Part shown: in pieces, positions 1,301 through 18,116 of the stretch
Layout: every line of letters begins with the position of its first letter
How positions within the stretch are numbered: position 1 is the stretch's first letter
From: Nitrosomonas sp.
GTDB taxonomy: Bacteria; Pseudomonadota; Gammaproteobacteria; Burkholderiales; Nitrosomonadaceae
Direction: 5' to 3'
Assembly (NCBI GenBank): GCA_008015565.1
Contig: SSFV01000124.1
Coordinates: 1-32,361 of the forward strand
Length of the DNA: 32,361 bases
The notes under the pieces: model-generated
What the model was told of the DNA's origin: nothing
What the model saw: only the letters and a program-made list of their open reading frames with translations
The model's database searches: none
Made by a program: the position numbers and the translations under genes

Positions 1301-3028
1301 ATGGTTAAAAACATGACAATAAAATCGCGTTTGGTTTTTGTGATTGGCTTACTTTCTATATTGCTGATCGGTGTCGGAGCTTTGGGTATTTATGGATTGA
1401 ATCAAACCAATGATTCATTTAAAGGGGTTTATGAGGATCGTGCGGTTCCGTTAGGGGATCTCGCCTTAATTCTGGATCGTGTACAGCGTGCACGTTTGAA
1501 TACGACAATGTCTGCTTTTGGGAGGAGTGCCGAAATCGTAAAAGAAAGACAAACATTGAATATGCAAAGAGATGCCGAGATTGAAAGTACATGGCAAAAA
1601 TATATGGCGACAAAATTGACGCCTGAAGAGGTAATACTGGCGGATAATTTCAGCCAGCAATGGAAGATATATCAAGATTCGCGCAACAGGACAATGGCTT
1701 TTGCCTCAGCGGGTGATTATGATGCTGCGATTGCAAATTTGACAGGTGATGCTGCAGCCAAATTTGATGCGGCACATGCTGCCATATTTAAACTGCTCGA
1801 ATTGCAACGCGATGAGTCGGCAAAGGAGTATTTAGAGGCTCAGAATAATTACCAAAACATTTTCCTGACTTCTGTCTTGGTGATTGGTTTGGGAATATTT
1901 CTCGCAGCTTTAATCGGTTTCCTATTGATTCGGGCGATACTTGGTCCATTGAATGAGGCTGTAGCTGTGGCTAATGCAGTGGCTTCCGGTGATTTAACTA
2001 GCCGCATTGAAGTTAATTCTACCAATGAAACCGGTCGTTTACTGCAAGCGTTAAAAACCATGAATGACAATCTGATTGATCTTGTGAGCAGGGTGCGTAC
2101 GGGAACGGATCAAATTGTAACTGCTTCCGGTGAAATTGCTTCCGGTAATTCTGATCTGAGTCAACGGACAGAAGAGCAAGCCTCTAGTTTGGAAGAAACT
2201 GCTGCTTCAATGGAAGAGCTAACTTCTACCGTCAAGCAGAATGCAGATAATGCCCGACAGGCAAATCAACTGGCAGCTGGTGCATCTGAGGTTGCGGTGA
2301 AGGGTGGCGCGGTAGTTGGGCAAGTAGTGCAAACTATGAATTCGATCAACGAAAGCTCTAAGAAAATAGTTGATATTATCAGCGTCATCGATGGTATTGC
2401 ATTTCAGACTAACATCTTGGCATTGAATGCTGCGGTGGAAGCAGCGCGAGCAGGAGAGCAAGGTCGCGGGTTTGCTGTGGTCGCAACTGAAGTACGTACT
2501 TTGGCGCAACGTTCTGCAGCTGCAGCTAAAGAAATAAAGGAATTGATCAATGATTCGGTAGCGAAAGTGGATGACGGGACTCGCTTAGTAGATGAAGCAG
2601 GCGTGACAATGGATGAAATCGTTAATGCAGTTAAACGTGTTACTGACATCATGAATGAGATTTCCGCTGCATCAAACGAACAAAGTTCTGGTATCGAACA
2701 AGTAAATCAAGCTGTAACACAAATGGATGAAGTCACACAGCAAAATGCTGCATTGGTGGAAGAAGCGGCCGCGGCGGCTCATTCTATGGATGATCAGGCA
2801 CAGGCTTTGATTCAAGCAGTTAGCGTCTTTAAATTATCTACTAGTAGCAGCCATTCCTTGGTTACACCTATCAAAAGAAGCAATCGTCCAACAGTGGCCA
2901 AGTTACCTAACCGCGGCTCTGCAACACGAAAAGCTATAGCGGCAAAAAAAGATACAGATTCTACGTCTGTGTCATCACAGCCGCGTAAGGTTGCAGCTGG
3001 CGGTGGCGGTGACTGGGAAGAATTTTAA
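1301..3028 (+). CDS. Methyl-accepting chemotaxis protein (Tar-like four-helix-bundle receptor)
   Basis: A 575-residue transmembrane chemoreceptor. A first membrane helix (about residues 11-31) is followed by a periplasmic four-helix-bundle ligand domain to about 188, a second membrane helix (about 189-210), a HAMP linker (about 210-262, with the GPL and SGDL positions) and a long antiparallel signalling coiled coil. The hairpin tip that binds CheA/CheW is canonical: [19 protein letters not shown] begins at residue 368. The protein ends in GGGGDWEEF. The final xWxxF resembles the NWETF pentapeptide that tethers CheR/CheB in enteric receptors, and the glycine linker before it fits. AGGAG lies just upstream of the ATG. 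The ligand is unknown. It is closely related to the next gene in the sensor half. Confidence 0.95.
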
Positions 3029-3147: not shown

Positions 3148-4545
3148 ATGCAGAAAAAATCACAGTCAGCATTTGGTATTGTTTTGCTATCTTTGCTATT
3201 AGCCTGCCTGGGAAGCATAGGGAGCTTGGGTATGTATGGCTTAGATCAAACGAATCATTCTTTCAAAGAGATTTATAAAGACCGTGTTGTTTTAATGGGA
3301 GATTTGGGTCTAATCCTGGATCGAATACAGCAAGAGCGGCTTGCTGCAGTGATATCGGTATACGGAAGAAATGCTGAAAAAGTTAAAGAACAGAAAAAGA
3401 CGATTCAGCAGCTTGACGCTGAGATTATCAATGTGTGGCAAAAGTATATGGCCACAAAATTGACCGTTGAAGAAATAAAATTAGCAGAAGATTTTAAGCA
3501 TCTGTGGAAGCTTTTCATGGACTCTTATAATCACACTATGACGTTAGCAGCTGATGGAGATTATGATGCTGCAATGATAATTCTGAATACCGATACGAAG
3601 TTGAAATTTGAGCCGCTATATGTGACGATGTTAAGGCTGCTTGAATTGCAACGTAATGTGAAAGTTGCAGAGTATTCAGCTTCGGAAGACCGGTATCAAG
3701 ATATTTTTGGTATTACACTACTCATGATGGTAATGGGTATCCTTTCGACGTTATTTGTCGGATTTATATTGTTGCGTGGGAATACAAATTCTGTAAAAGA
3801 CATAGCACTTGTTGTAAGAACTGACAGTTCTGGAACTTCGATTAACTGCAAAGCGATCTCAAAGAATAAGACCGACCGCCTTGTGTATACTTTAAAAGCA
3901 CTGAATAGCAAGTTGATTGATTTAGTTTGTTCAGTACCTATAAATTTGTACAAATTTTCTACAGCTGTTTCGACTGAAAACGATACAACTCCAGCAGCCC
4001 GGCAGGAATTTGAGAATGCTCATAACCAAGATTCAGAAAAAATTGCAGAGCATATCGATGCCATCAAAAGCATCGTCTTACAAACTACTGCCTTAGCATT
4101 AAATGAAATTCATGCACATACACAAACAGATGAAAAAGAACATGGCGTTAAGGTATCGATAGCAAAATCGGATACACTGAGGCAAGACTACGAAGTAGCA
4201 AGCGGAAAAATTAGGGAAGTAATCAATAACCTAAACCATGGTGTTAGAAAAATCAAAGAAGACAATGACTTGGCTGATGTGCAAACAAATATGGCTAACC
4301 TGTCGGAAATTGTGAGTGAGATATTTTCCATTATGCAAATATCAAGGGCTAGTGCCGAACAACCTGTTTATTTAGCGCAGCAAATTAACGAAACGGAACA
4401 ACAAAAAGCTATCTTACCGGAAGAGCAAATTGCAGTTAAGTCAATCACTAACTCTGAAGATGGTTCCCTAAAAGATACGGCAATCCTTACGGTAGTTAAT
4501 AATCGATGGAATAAATTTAATTGTAAGAACAATTCATTAGAATAG
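3148..4545 (+). CDS. Degenerate chemoreceptor paralogue with damaged signalling domain
   Basis: A 465-residue open frame clearly duplicated from the preceding receptor. The two align almost without gaps from the first membrane helix to the end of HAMP (shared [28 protein letters not shown] and GDYDAA segments). After HAMP the copy has lost about 55 residues of the descending signalling helix: the distance from LIDLV to the QT of the hairpin is 56 residues instead of 111. The ascending helix is near full length. The CheA/CheW-binding tip is eroded: LQTTALALNEIHAHTQTDEKE replaces the invariant [15 protein letters not shown] lacks the conserved Pro and the GDL turn. A trace of the C-terminal pentapeptide remains (RWNKF), followed by eight extra residues. 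No good Shine-Dalgarno is visible. It may be a pseudogene that has not yet acquired a stop, or a non-signalling membrane protein. Confidence 0.85.
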   Translation: MQKKSQSAFGIVLLSLLLACLGSIGSLGMYGLDQTNHSFKEIYKDRVVLMGDLGLILDRIQQERLAAVISVYGRNAEKVKEQKKTIQQLDAEIINVWQKYMATKLTVEEIKLAEDFKHLWKLFMDSYNHTMTLAADGDYDAAMIILNTDTKLKFEPLYVTMLRLLELQRNVKVAEYSASEDRYQDIFGITLLMMVMGILSTLFVGFILLRGNTNSVKDIALVVRTDSSGTSINCKAISKNKTDRLVYTLKALNSKLIDLVCSVPINLYKFSTAVSTENDTTPAARQEFENAHNQDSEKIAEHIDAIKSIVLQTTALALNEIHAHTQTDEKEHGVKVSIAKSDTLRQDYEVASGKIREVINNLNHGVRKIKEDNDLADVQTNMANLSEIVSEIFSIMQISRASAEQPVYLAQQINETEQQKAILPEEQIAVKSITNSEDGSLKDTAILTVVNNRWNKFNCKNNSLE

Positions 4546-14906: not shown

Positions 14907-15158
14907 CTGATATCTCTTTTATTTTTTAAGAATTTCGAGAATTTCTTTTTTTAAGAGCTGGAAAGTAGCAAAGATTATGTGTGAAGTCAAAACGCTTTCG
15001 TATAGCCAAAGTCAACGATGACATTTGCATTTCGGTGCAACTTTGGTAAATTCTTAACTTCGCAAAAGCTGTTGAAAAGCTCTTTACTATTGGCTATGGC
15101 CACTGAGGTGTTATTGTGGTGGCCGATTTTTGGTTTACTTACTTTACCAAGGAGAATC

Positions 15159-15539
15159 ATGCAGCATAATCCAGGATTTTTACAATTAGTTCAACAAGCG
15201 AGGCGGAGAATAAAAGAATGCTCTGTTTCAGATGTGCAGGCTAGATTAGCACGGGGAGAATCGTTTCATTTTATCGATGTACGGGAAGATCATGAATTCT
15301 GGATAGACCATGCAGCAGGTGCTCTCCACCTTGGGAAAGGCATTATTGAACGGGATATCGAAACTGCGATACCCGATAAACAAGCGCCTATCGTTTTATA
15401 TTGCGGTGGAGGATTTCGTTCAGTCCTAGCGGCTGATGCGCTACTGCAAATGGGTTATACCAATGTGATGTCGATGGACGGCGGAATTAGGGCCTGGCGT
15501 GAGGCAGGGGGCGCCCTTGAAAAAGACAAGTCGATTTAG
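15159..15539 (+). CDS. Rhodanese-domain sulfurtransferase
   Basis: A 126-residue single rhodanese domain. It shows the CH2A-like FHFIDVREDHEFWIDHAAGALHL segment and the active-site loop LYCGGGFRS with the persulfide-carrying Cys82, followed by AADALLQMGYTNVMSMDGGIRAW. The frame is open from 15018, but the ATG at 15159 is chosen because it follows AAGGAGA by five bases and begins a normal-length domain; the longer form would add a meaningless 47-residue extension. Likely cytoplasmic (no signal peptide). Its sulfur acceptor is unknown. It stands alone between the divergent permease gene and the transposase scar. Confidence 0.9.
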   Translation: MQHNPGFLQLVQQARRRIKECSVSDVQARLARGESFHFIDVREDHEFWIDHAAGALHLGKGIIERDIETAIPDKQAPIVLYCGGGFRSVLAADALLQMGYTNVMSMDGGIRAWREAGGALEKDKSI

Positions 15540-15887: not shown

Positions 15888-16484
15888 ATGTTAAAGTTTA
15901 AAAGCACGTTAGTAAGTGGTATTGTTTCTGTATTGTTTGCCGGTTCACTGGTCAATCTAGCACATGCTTCGGATGCACATCATGCACATAAAGGTTTAAA
16001 TTATGGTAGTTTTACTAAAGAACATGACTTATTAACCCCGAAGGGTTATCGCGAATGGGTATTTGTTGGATCCCCAGTAACTCCCAAAGATATGAACGAT
16101 GGAAATCCTGCATTTCCCGAGTTTCATAACGTATATATCGATCCTACAAGTTGGGATCATTGGAAAAAAACGGGTGAATTCCGTGACGGTACTGTAATCG
16201 TTAAAGAACTGGTTAGTGTAGGTGCTAAGGAATCCGCCAGCGGGAATGGCTATTTTCAAGGTGAATTTCTTGGGATTGCCGCTACAGTAAAAGATTCCAA
16301 ACGTTATCCCGACAGACCTGGTAATTGGGCGTACTTTACTTTTGAATCTTATGAAGCTAAACAAGGAGTAATCCAAGCGGATGAAGCTTGTGCAGCTTGC
16401 CACAAAGCTAATGCCGCACAAGATATGGTTTTCACTCAACACTATCCTGTATTGCGGGCTGCTAAGCCAGGCAAAAAAGACTAA
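15888..16484 (+). CDS. cytL: Cytochrome P460 with Ala at the catalytic-base position
   Basis: A 198-residue periplasmic c-type haem protein. A signal peptide (LVSGIVSVLFAGSLVNLAHA, likely cut after residue 27) is followed by the P460 beta-fold domain. The haem attachment motif is CAACH at 168-172. Lys106 in GTVIVKELVSVG matches the lysine (Lys70 in mature N. europaea P460) whose cross-link to the haem creates the P460 chromophore. Active N. europaea P460 oxidises hydroxylamine, giving N2O or releasing nitrogen oxides. The second-sphere Glu96 needed for this aligns here with Ala131 (LGIAATVKD against GLEASVKD). This is the same substitution I recall being described for Nitrosomonas sp. AL212, where the enzyme does not oxidise hydroxylamine. 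So haem assembly should be normal and activity altered. AAGGA precedes the ATG. The gene has its own promoter and terminator. Confidence 0.95.
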   Translation: MLKFKSTLVSGIVSVLFAGSLVNLAHASDAHHAHKGLNYGSFTKEHDLLTPKGYREWVFVGSPVTPKDMNDGNPAFPEFHNVYIDPTSWDHWKKTGEFRDGTVIVKELVSVGAKESASGNGYFQGEFLGIAATVKDSKRYPDRPGNWAYFTFESYEAKQGVIQADEACAACHKANAAQDMVFTQHYPVLRAAKPGKKD

Positions 16485-16720: not shown

Positions 16721-16769
16721 TTTGAATGTCTAAAGCTTTTATTGATTTTTTTATTCAATGACATTCAAA
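16721..16769. repeat. Inverted repeat at the nitrosocyanin 3' end
   Basis: TTTGAATGTC (16721-16730) and GACATTCAAA (16760-16769) are a perfect 10-bp inverted repeat. The right arm lies inside the last codons of the nitrosocyanin gene and the left arm beyond its stop. A T7 run lies in the loop on the plus strand. It could protect the mRNA 3' end or end transcription weakly; the role is not clear. Confidence 0.45.
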
Positions 16770-17161
16770 GAACCAGGCAGGTGGATATTTTTTGGATGTA
16801 ATTGACACCAAATTGTAAATGCACCAGCTTTATCTGCCACTAAAGAGATGACTTTAGTTTCGCCTGCTTTAATTATTTCTTTAATACCGTATTCATCAAT
16901 GGCAAATCCTTCACTGATTGGGGATTTGTTCTCAACGGTTATTTTGACTGAAGTTCCCTTTTTGACAACTAGTGTTTCAGGTTCATTCAAGACATTAAAA
17001 GCACGAATATTGGTAACTGTCACACCTTCAACCTTGAGTTCTGGAATATTGGTGTCGTAAGCATTGACAACTACTTTAAAATTTTGTTCTGCCGCGTGGG
17101 AAATGCCAGTTAATAGCAAGCCCGCGACTGAACTTAAAAGCATCATTTTGGTTATCTTCAT
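16751..17161 (-). CDS. ncyA: Nitrosocyanin (red mononuclear copper protein)
   Basis: A 136-residue precursor of a periplasmic copper protein restricted to ammonia oxidizers; its physiological role is still unsettled, with an enzymatic role in nitrogen-oxide chemistry suspected. The signal peptide ends SHA|AEQ (about residue 23). The cupredoxin fold follows. All four copper ligands are present: Glu84 (PISEGF), Cys119, His122 and His127 ([10 protein letters not shown]). Subtracting 24 gives 60, 95, 98 and 103, exactly the N. europaea structural numbering. The frame is open from 17269, but the ATG at 17161 is the start, since CCTCCTT (17169-17175) is a near-perfect Shine-Dalgarno in reverse complement 7 bases away and starts a proper signal peptide. 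It converges on the P460 gene. Confidence 0.97.
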
Positions 17162-17240
17162 AAATATACCTCCTTCAAATATATTATGTGTTAGTGAAAT
17201 TGCTGTTTGCTTTGCACATTTAAGCGCATAAGCGGTAGCT

Positions 17241-17342: not shown

Positions 17343-18116
17343 CTAGAAATTGTTTTTCCATTCTCGCAGTGCTGTAAAAGTGTTTAATGGGCCAGTAAGT
17401 ACTTGTTTGGAGTGATTCTTTACATGATCAATGACCGCCTGCTGGTCACAACGCAAGAATGGATTAACCGCTTTCTCTAGCATTAGTGTCGTCGGAATCG
17501 TTGGGATATTTTCGTTGCGTAATTTTCGCGCGGCTATTTCCAACTCGGCAAGCTTAGAATTTTTTGGATCAACGGTTCTGGCAAAACGTATATTGTCTAA
17601 CGTATATTCATGTGTGCAATAAATCAATGTATCATCAGGCAATTGAGAAAGCTTTTGTAGAGACTGATACATTTGCTGTGGGGAGCCTTCGAATATCCTT
17701 CCACATCCGCATGAGAAAAGTGTATCGCCGCAAAATACCATGTTCATTGGATTTGAGGCAAAATACGCAATATGCCCTTGCGTATGCCCAGGGGTATCCA
17801 GCACGGTGAGATTAAGTGAAATTTCTTTTAAATTGACATGATCACCTTCATTGAGAGGGTGAGTCATTGACGGAATAAATTCATTTCGTGGACCGTATAC
17901 AGGTACATCGAACGACTTGAGTAATGCCTTGTTTCCGCCGGTATGATCATTATGGTGGTGGGTGATAAGAATTGCGCTTAAGTGTAATTTTTTTAATTCA
18001 AGATATTCAATAACAGGTGTTGCTATGCCTGGATCCACAATGACAGCATAATTTTGATTATGAATCATCCAGATATAGTTATCTTTAAAGGCATGAATCG
18101 GGTAAATATTCAACAT
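17343..18116 (-). CDS. gloB: Hydroxyacylglutathione hydrolase (glyoxalase II)
   Basis: A 257-residue metallo-beta-lactamase-fold enzyme that hydrolyses S-lactoylglutathione to lactate and glutathione, completing methylglyoxal detoxification. The dinuclear metal site is intact: THHHNDHTGG with His53, His55, Asp57 and His58, then VLDTPGHTQGHIAYF, the CGDTLFSCGCGRIFEG loop and CTHEYTLDNIRFA. The C-terminal helical lid shows NPFLRCDQQAV. The length is typical. It is divergent from the methyltransferase gene 74 bases away; the same gloB / yafS pairing occurs in E. coli and other proteobacteria. Confidence 0.95.
   Translation of the reverse strand: MLNIYPIHAFKDNYIWMIHNQNYAVIVDPGIATPVIEYLELKKLHLSAILITHHHNDHTGGNKALLKSFDVPVYGPRNEFIPSMTHPLNEGDHVNLKEISLNLTVLDTPGHTQGHIAYFASNPMNMVFCGDTLFSCGCGRIFEGSPQQMYQSLQKLSQLPDDTLIYCTHEYTLDNIRFARTVDPKNSKLAELEIAARKLRNENIPTIPTTLMLEKAVNPFLRCDQQAVIDHVKNHSKQVLTGPLNTFTALREWKNNF

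Follow-up and report, generated by a model that had tools for sequence, protein, structure and literature searches.

A maintained clade of cytochrome P460 with alanine at the position of the catalytic glutamate in Nitrosomonadaceae, and its possible role in nitric oxide binding

The gene of cytochrome P460, cytL, is discussed in the accessible part of the literature as a gene for the conversion of hydroxylamine to N2O or for detoxification, and the P460s that oxidize hydroxylamine carry a distal carboxylate near their haem (Glu96 in the Nitrosomonas europaea protein, NeP460, and Asp102 in McP460). What can a P460 without this carboxylate be doing, and is such a protein an oddity of one genome? 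The question is raised by a stretch of 32,361 nucleotides from Nitrosomonas sp. (contig SSFV01000124.1 of assembly GCA_008015565.1), called here the window. The original prediction, whose alignment was made by eye, was that the window encodes a P460 having alanine at the position of Glu96, with the haem motif and the cross-linking lysine conserved, and that its chemistry is changed, for example to NO handling only, under strong selection to stay intact. The features discussed below are collected in Table 1. In the genome of the window (2.6 Mb, 91% complete) one P460 gene was found. In the named collection the nearest relative of the protein belongs to an uncultured betaproteobacterium labelled AOB (97% identity), followed by proteins from Nitrosomonas MAGs at 88, 87 and 83%; because of these relatives and of the nitrosocyanin gene next to it, the host is presumably an ammonia oxidizer.

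Table 1. Positions of the genes, codons and motif considered in the window
Feature	Position	Strand	Basis
Cytochrome P460 (cytL), Ala131 form, 198 aa	15888..16484	+	Intact ORF, PF16694, best PDB match 6amg
Codon of Phe76, distal capping residue	16113..16115	+	Phe in 82/82 Ala/Val-131 rows and 62/62 Glu-131 rows
Codon AAA of Lys106, expected haem cross-link	16203..16205	+	AL212 Lys106 cross-link published
Codon GCC of Ala131, replacing the catalytic glutamate	16278..16280	+	Alignment to 6amg and NeP460
Haem c motif CAACH, residues 168-172	16389..16403	+	ORF translation
Nitrosocyanin (ncyA), convergent neighbour	16751..17164	-	TIGR03096 equivalog 245.3 bits (cut-off 142.85); PDB 1iby E 6.1e-59
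gloB (hydroxyacylglutathione hydrolase), conserved syntenic neighbour	17343..18116	-	TIGR03413 338.4 bits
Rhodanese-domain protein, upstream	15018..15539	+	PF00581

The only Pfam match of the protein is PF16694 (Cytochrome_P460, E 2.3e-32), a model that is not specific for P460 and covers cytochromes c'-beta as well. The beta-sheet P460 fold was recognized by Foldseek on an AlphaFold2 model (mean pLDDT 71, pTM 0.69): the first thirteen hits were chains of the P460 from Nitrosomonas sp. AL212 (NsP460) and the next two were NeP460, with a top TMt of 0.86. A CxxCH motif is present, and so is the lysine at the position of the haem cross-link, the residue whose absence characterizes cytochromes c'-beta. 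The N. europaea cytochrome c'-beta (7s5o) resembles the window protein in its fold and in having alanine at the carboxylate position, but differs by a methionine in place of the lysine and by an arginine cap (PMC11928373, accessible part).

Among solved structures the best match is that of NsP460 (6amg, E 1.9e-103). The phmmer alignment of the two proteins is ungapped over residues 1-196, so that their numbering is common, and the mature sequences are 81.5% identical; none of the 31 substitutions found after residue 28 touches Lys106, Ala131, Phe76 or the CAACH motif, which all coincide. In the same column as Ala131, NeP460 (2je2) has its glutamate (GLEASVKD, against GIAATVKD in the window); the chain numbering of 2je2 gives E97 and K71 for the residues published as Glu96 and Lys70, a shift of one. 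The by-eye alignment was therefore correct. NeP460 (2je3) shares with the window protein the fold, the cross-linking lysine, the haem motif and the capping phenylalanine, and differs from it by Glu96 and by its place in a separate clade.

The properties of the AL212 protein are reported in a review (PMC11928373), which numbers the residue as Ala 130 in a single paragraph and as Ala131 in the others. Its haem is cross-linked to Lys106, and the capping role of Phe76 is given in Table 2 of that review. NsP460 binds both NO and hydroxylamine, with a Kd of 18 mM for hydroxylamine and of 8 µM for the formation of {FeNO}6, and forms a stable FeIII-NH2OH complex, without oxidizing hydroxylamine: its activity of 0.43 is that of the background measured with no protein (0.44), compared with 4.5 for NeP460, and the A131E mutant gains activity (2.1), about half that of NeP460. 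The published facts agree with those stated in the original prediction. By sequence, the window P460 is the ortholog of NsP460, and since the latter is inactive with hydroxylamine, it very probably has no hydroxylamine oxidase activity either.

How common is this form? We collected 196 hits of the P460 superfamily from 47 named loci, a family search of 125 Nitrosomonadaceae genomes and fetched regions; with 22 duplicate sequences and 5 fragments shorter than 140 residues left out, the set comprised 169 rows. Sorted by residues 106 and 131, they comprise 76 Lys/Ala, 62 Lys/Glu, 25 Lys/Phe, 4 Leu/Ala and 2 Lys/Val rows, that is, 82 rows with Ala or Val at 131 against 62 with Glu; because the sampling was seeded from an Ala-form protein, the Glu and Phe forms are under-sampled in these counts, above all outside the family. 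The two Val rows (GTT codon; L095 and L099) come from genomes that hold a Glu-type P460 as well (G080 and G010). In the family, 97 of the 125 genomes have a P460 match, 84 with a gene of the Ala clade and 32 with a Glu gene: 64 have the Ala form without Glu, 20 have both, 12 have Glu without an intact Ala copy and one has only the Phe form, it being understood that draft genomes may hide further copies. The Ala form is thus the commonest P460 among the sampled family genomes and not a peculiarity of the window gene. In the present samples it was found only within Nitrosomonadaceae; in a phylum-wide sample, where 43 of 398 genomes matched, the window gene is the only Lys/Ala row of the 34 aligned (query included), the distant rows being aligned with low certainty. 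Our literature search, with most subscription papers outside its reach, found no report of the family-wide spread of Ala131 or of a linkage to nitrosocyanin; the new point here is that proteins of the Ala form make up a maintained majority class in the sampled genomes, all of them in one clade.

The Ala and Glu classes are separated by one residue that can be read from sequence, and this has a practical side. If Ala131 predicts inactivity, then of the 96 sampled family genomes that have a P460 of the Ala or Glu type, 64 show only the form that does not oxidize hydroxylamine, and counts of cytL would therefore overstate the P460-derived N2O in many ammonia oxidizers.

Trees were built without columns 106 and 131, on 133 rows (quick tree) and 81 rows (careful tree) after thinning. 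In both, the Ala/Val rows form one clade, of 55 rows in the quick tree (SH-aLRT 99) and of 36 rows in the careful one (100/99). When the quick tree is rooted on the Phe rows, this clade is nested among the Glu rows, with 83% on the deciding branch; as Glu rows surround it, Glu to Ala appears the likelier direction of change, with moderate support, and the Ala form would most likely have arisen once, from a glutamate form. The gene environment was also compared. The Ala-form gene adjoins gloB, a methyltransferase gene, rnhA and dnaQ in many Nitrosomonas genomes, and gloB lies within 2.8 kb downstream of it in 50 of 76 Lys/Ala rows and in both Lys/Val rows, against none of the 4 Leu/Ala and 25 Phe rows (some rows have no flank); near the Glu form gloB was seen in one of 62 rows, 4.3 kb upstream. 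This conserved neighbourhood points to vertical inheritance of the Ala form. The rhodanese gene was found upstream of P460 in the window and in L002 only, among compared loci of which several have little flank. Elsewhere in the window, at 1301-3028 and 3148-4545, two consecutive related ORFs look chemoreceptor-like, the second with a C-terminal half that, judged by eye, has diverged.

The maintenance of alanine can be followed at the codon level. Codon 131 is GCT in 40, GCC in 17, GCG in 15, GCA in 8 and GTT in 2 of the 82 Ala/Val rows, and GAA in 46 and GAG in 16 of the 62 Glu rows. Its third base therefore turns over in the clade without glutamate reappearing, even though a single base change would give Glu in the 23 rows with GCA or GCG; this argues that alanine is maintained. 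For pairs with dS between 0.1 and 1.2, the median dN/dS is 0.058 in the Ala/Val clade (150 non-independent pairs, range 0 to 0.30) and 0.047 in the Glu rows (40 non-independent pairs), so the constraint on the Ala form is about as strong as that on the glutamate form. Between the window gene and its 97%-identical relative L002, dN is 0.0027 for a dS of 0.299. The strong selection foreseen for this gene is borne out as purifying selection. A sequencing artefact or a pseudogene is ruled out by the intact ORF and by the alanine in 80 of the 82 rows of the clade. Ten near-full hits with one stop (G070, G020, G047, G019, G009, G055, G046, G041, G072 and G060) had been candidates for broken genes and were rejected, as in all ten the stop simply follows the normal C-terminal sequence (...YPVLRAAKP or like). 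Truly broken copies, each split over two frames, are those of G013 and G092 for the Ala form and of G111 for the Glu form, so that G013, scored above as Glu only, retains a broken Ala-form copy; the pieces from G013 and G111 fell below the length required for the 169-row set, while the longer one from G092 is included. Short decayed pieces with stops are also present in G099 and G095.

That the Ala form is produced in cells is suggested by N. ureae, in which CytL made up 0.08% of the detected proteome (PMC5960693, accessible part). The protein of N. ureae strain Nm13 (L008) is of the Ala form, and the form is thus probably an expressed protein. We infer that strains Is79 and N. ureae Nm10 carry it as well. 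For Is79 and N. ureae, published accounts, as far as their text was accessible, mention a P460 and no annotated NO reductase, and report that much NO was released and not consumed again.

Concerning the function, we favour, as probable though with reserve, a periplasmic P460, ortholog of NsP460 and member of a single maintained clade, that binds NO and hydroxylamine without oxidizing hydroxylamine and has a task connected with NO. In this protein Lys106 should form the cross-link to haem c and Phe76 should cap the haem, and both ligands should be bound as by the ortholog; with no carboxylate at 131 to take protons, hydroxylamine would not be oxidized, as published for the ortholog. The most likely task would be to bind NO coming from HAO or NirK, or to pass it on, as proposed for cytochromes c'. 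NO binding or transfer would be the simplest reading of the role, and as the main role we advance it tentatively. The NO affinity of NsP460 (Kd of 8 µM) is close to that of the active NeP460 (5 µM, accessible part of the source), so that NO binding does not set the Ala form apart, and a strong NO sink is disfavoured because Is79 and N. ureae did not take up again the NO that they released. Of the changed chemistry first proposed, the likely inactivity with hydroxylamine thus stands, through the orthology with the AL212 protein, whereas NO handling only is a supposition.

The other genes of the genome bear on this role as well. It has nirK (472 bits) and, elsewhere, a cytochrome c'-beta gene (L176, E 2.9e-62), relative of the N. 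europaea protein of known structure. We had considered that the genome might have no NO reductase, which was rejected: a contig of 27,838 bases (C30) has at its end a gene for a NorC-like protein and, after it, the codons of the 67 N-terminal residues of a NorB-like protein. These names were given by reading, both proteins scoring below the Pfam cut-offs (PF22085, 24.4 for a cut-off of 29; PF00115, 27.9 for 34.8) and receiving no name from the NCBIfam models; the only full COX1-family hit of the genome is cytochrome c oxidase subunit I. Together with the cytochrome c'-beta, these proteins could already handle NO, which weakens the case for an NO role of the P460.

An alternative that we regard as unlikely is that of a protein in transit towards cytochrome c': once glutamate was lost, the cross-link would have become less necessary, and the protein would be drifting towards an ordinary gas-binding haem. 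Lys106 is indeed replaced by Leu in 4 of the 82 rows of the Ala clade and in none of the 62 Glu rows, the Leu rows forming one subclade (98 in the quick tree, 100/97 in the careful one) with two named Nitrosospira, Nl5 and NpAV, and two genomes of group g3, G095 and G099 (proteins L016, L018, L111 and L119). A cytochrome c'-beta from Nitrosospira sp. NpAV (NpCP-beta), in which Leu takes the place of the cross-linking lysine, is published, and its L105K mutation restores the cross-link, according to the accessible part of the source; from strain and residue we infer that it is our locus L018, which lies in the Ala-131 clade even though the protein was published as a cytochrome c'-beta. However, Lys106 is kept in 78 of the 82 rows and the dN/dS values of the Ala and Glu forms are similar, which suggests that in Nitrosomonas the cross-link has kept its importance. 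The natural series Glu+Lys, Ala+Lys and Ala+Leu is useful for understanding how a P460 becomes a cytochrome c'.

Another alternative, distinctly unlikely in our view, is that the protein couples NO with hydroxylamine: ready-made NO from HAO or NirK would give {FeNO}6, which hydroxylamine would attack to yield N2O. Glutamate could be needed only for the oxidation of hydroxylamine to the NO level, and the Ala form could keep the second half-cycle. The two complexes that NsP460 forms are consistent with such a cycle, as is the statement in the accessible part of PMC11928373 that an NO donor can 'shunt' resting P460 to {FeNO}6, which is assumed to react with hydroxylamine. Is79 and N. ureae also formed most of their N2O during active hydroxylamine oxidation, and more of it than the other strains tested, but the authors judged this N2O abiotic, and heat-killed cells of both strains gave N2O with hydroxylamine; moreover, in the literature examined, accessible in part, the coupling step is not described for wild-type NsP460. 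That the Ala-131 P460 is not a dead enzyme but one dedicated to making N2O in this way seems quite doubtful to us; if true, ammonia oxidizers would have in it a route to N2O that is independent of NO reductase.

Little probability is given also to a different substrate or to electron transfer, for example with the neighbouring red copper protein nitrosocyanin. In the window its gene sits between P460 and gloB, on the strand opposite to P460; we chose its start codon, the longest ORF running to 17269. Nitrosocyanin scores above the cut-off in 67 of the 125 genomes, 41 of which also have an Ala-clade P460. In 12 of these 41 the genes lie next to each other. The twelve are spread over four positions in the P460 tree: the window group, the group of AL212 and N. 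ureae, G029, and G052, where the arrangement is another. The row closest to 6amg (L061, 98.5%) has an adjoining nitrosocyanin gene too, and the N. ureae Nm10 locus tags, ATY38_00645 and 00655, are close in the accessible part of the source. Against a partnership, 11 of the 12 pairs are arranged convergently and hence do not make one operon, the genes were not found together in the other 29 genomes (drafts with contig ends, such as G084, may hide pairs), and 43 of the 84 Ala-form genomes have no nitrosocyanin above the cut-off. For a carrier role, the potential of -424 mV (PMC11928373, accessible part) looks low, in our judgement, for a carrier in this chain.

Finally, the distal carboxylate might be replaced elsewhere. 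In a comparison of acids over 158 columns, column 131 is acidic in 62 of 62 Glu rows and in none of the 82 Ala/Val rows, and acids are also lost in the Ala clade at 143 (from 95% to 0) and 178 (from 61% to 26%); none took the distal position in the columns compared, and we see no convincing replacement as far as sequences can tell. An active hydroxylamine oxidase using another base is highly improbable, since the acids gained in the Ala clade relative to the Glu rows, at 153 and 165, stand just N-terminal of the haem motif in a gapped stretch of the alignment, and identical surroundings, FESYEAK and DExCAACH, occur in the AL212 protein, which is inactive. Tyr155, considered as a second marker of the clade, was dropped because of a gap there in 29 of 82 rows.

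Two other forms were seen beside the Ala and Glu ones. The Phe-131 form is a P460-like second gene that keeps the lysine and mostly has no residue aligned to the capping phenylalanine; it occurs in Nitrosomonadaceae, Enterovibrio, Ruegeria and single MAGs of other groups (e.g., L020, L034, L039, L041, L135, L139 and L142). It closely follows a Glu-type P460, 21 of the 25 Phe rows having a Glu gene on the same strand in the locus, with a distance between the stop-to-stop frames (not the assigned starts) that ranges from -191 to +181 bases, and its product is possibly a partner subunit. A distant PF16694 group from other Pseudomonadota (L177-L190, 14 of the 34 rows of the phylum-wide alignment) has the lysine and, where the uncertain alignment places residue 131, a glutamine (e.g., TVQVMVKD).
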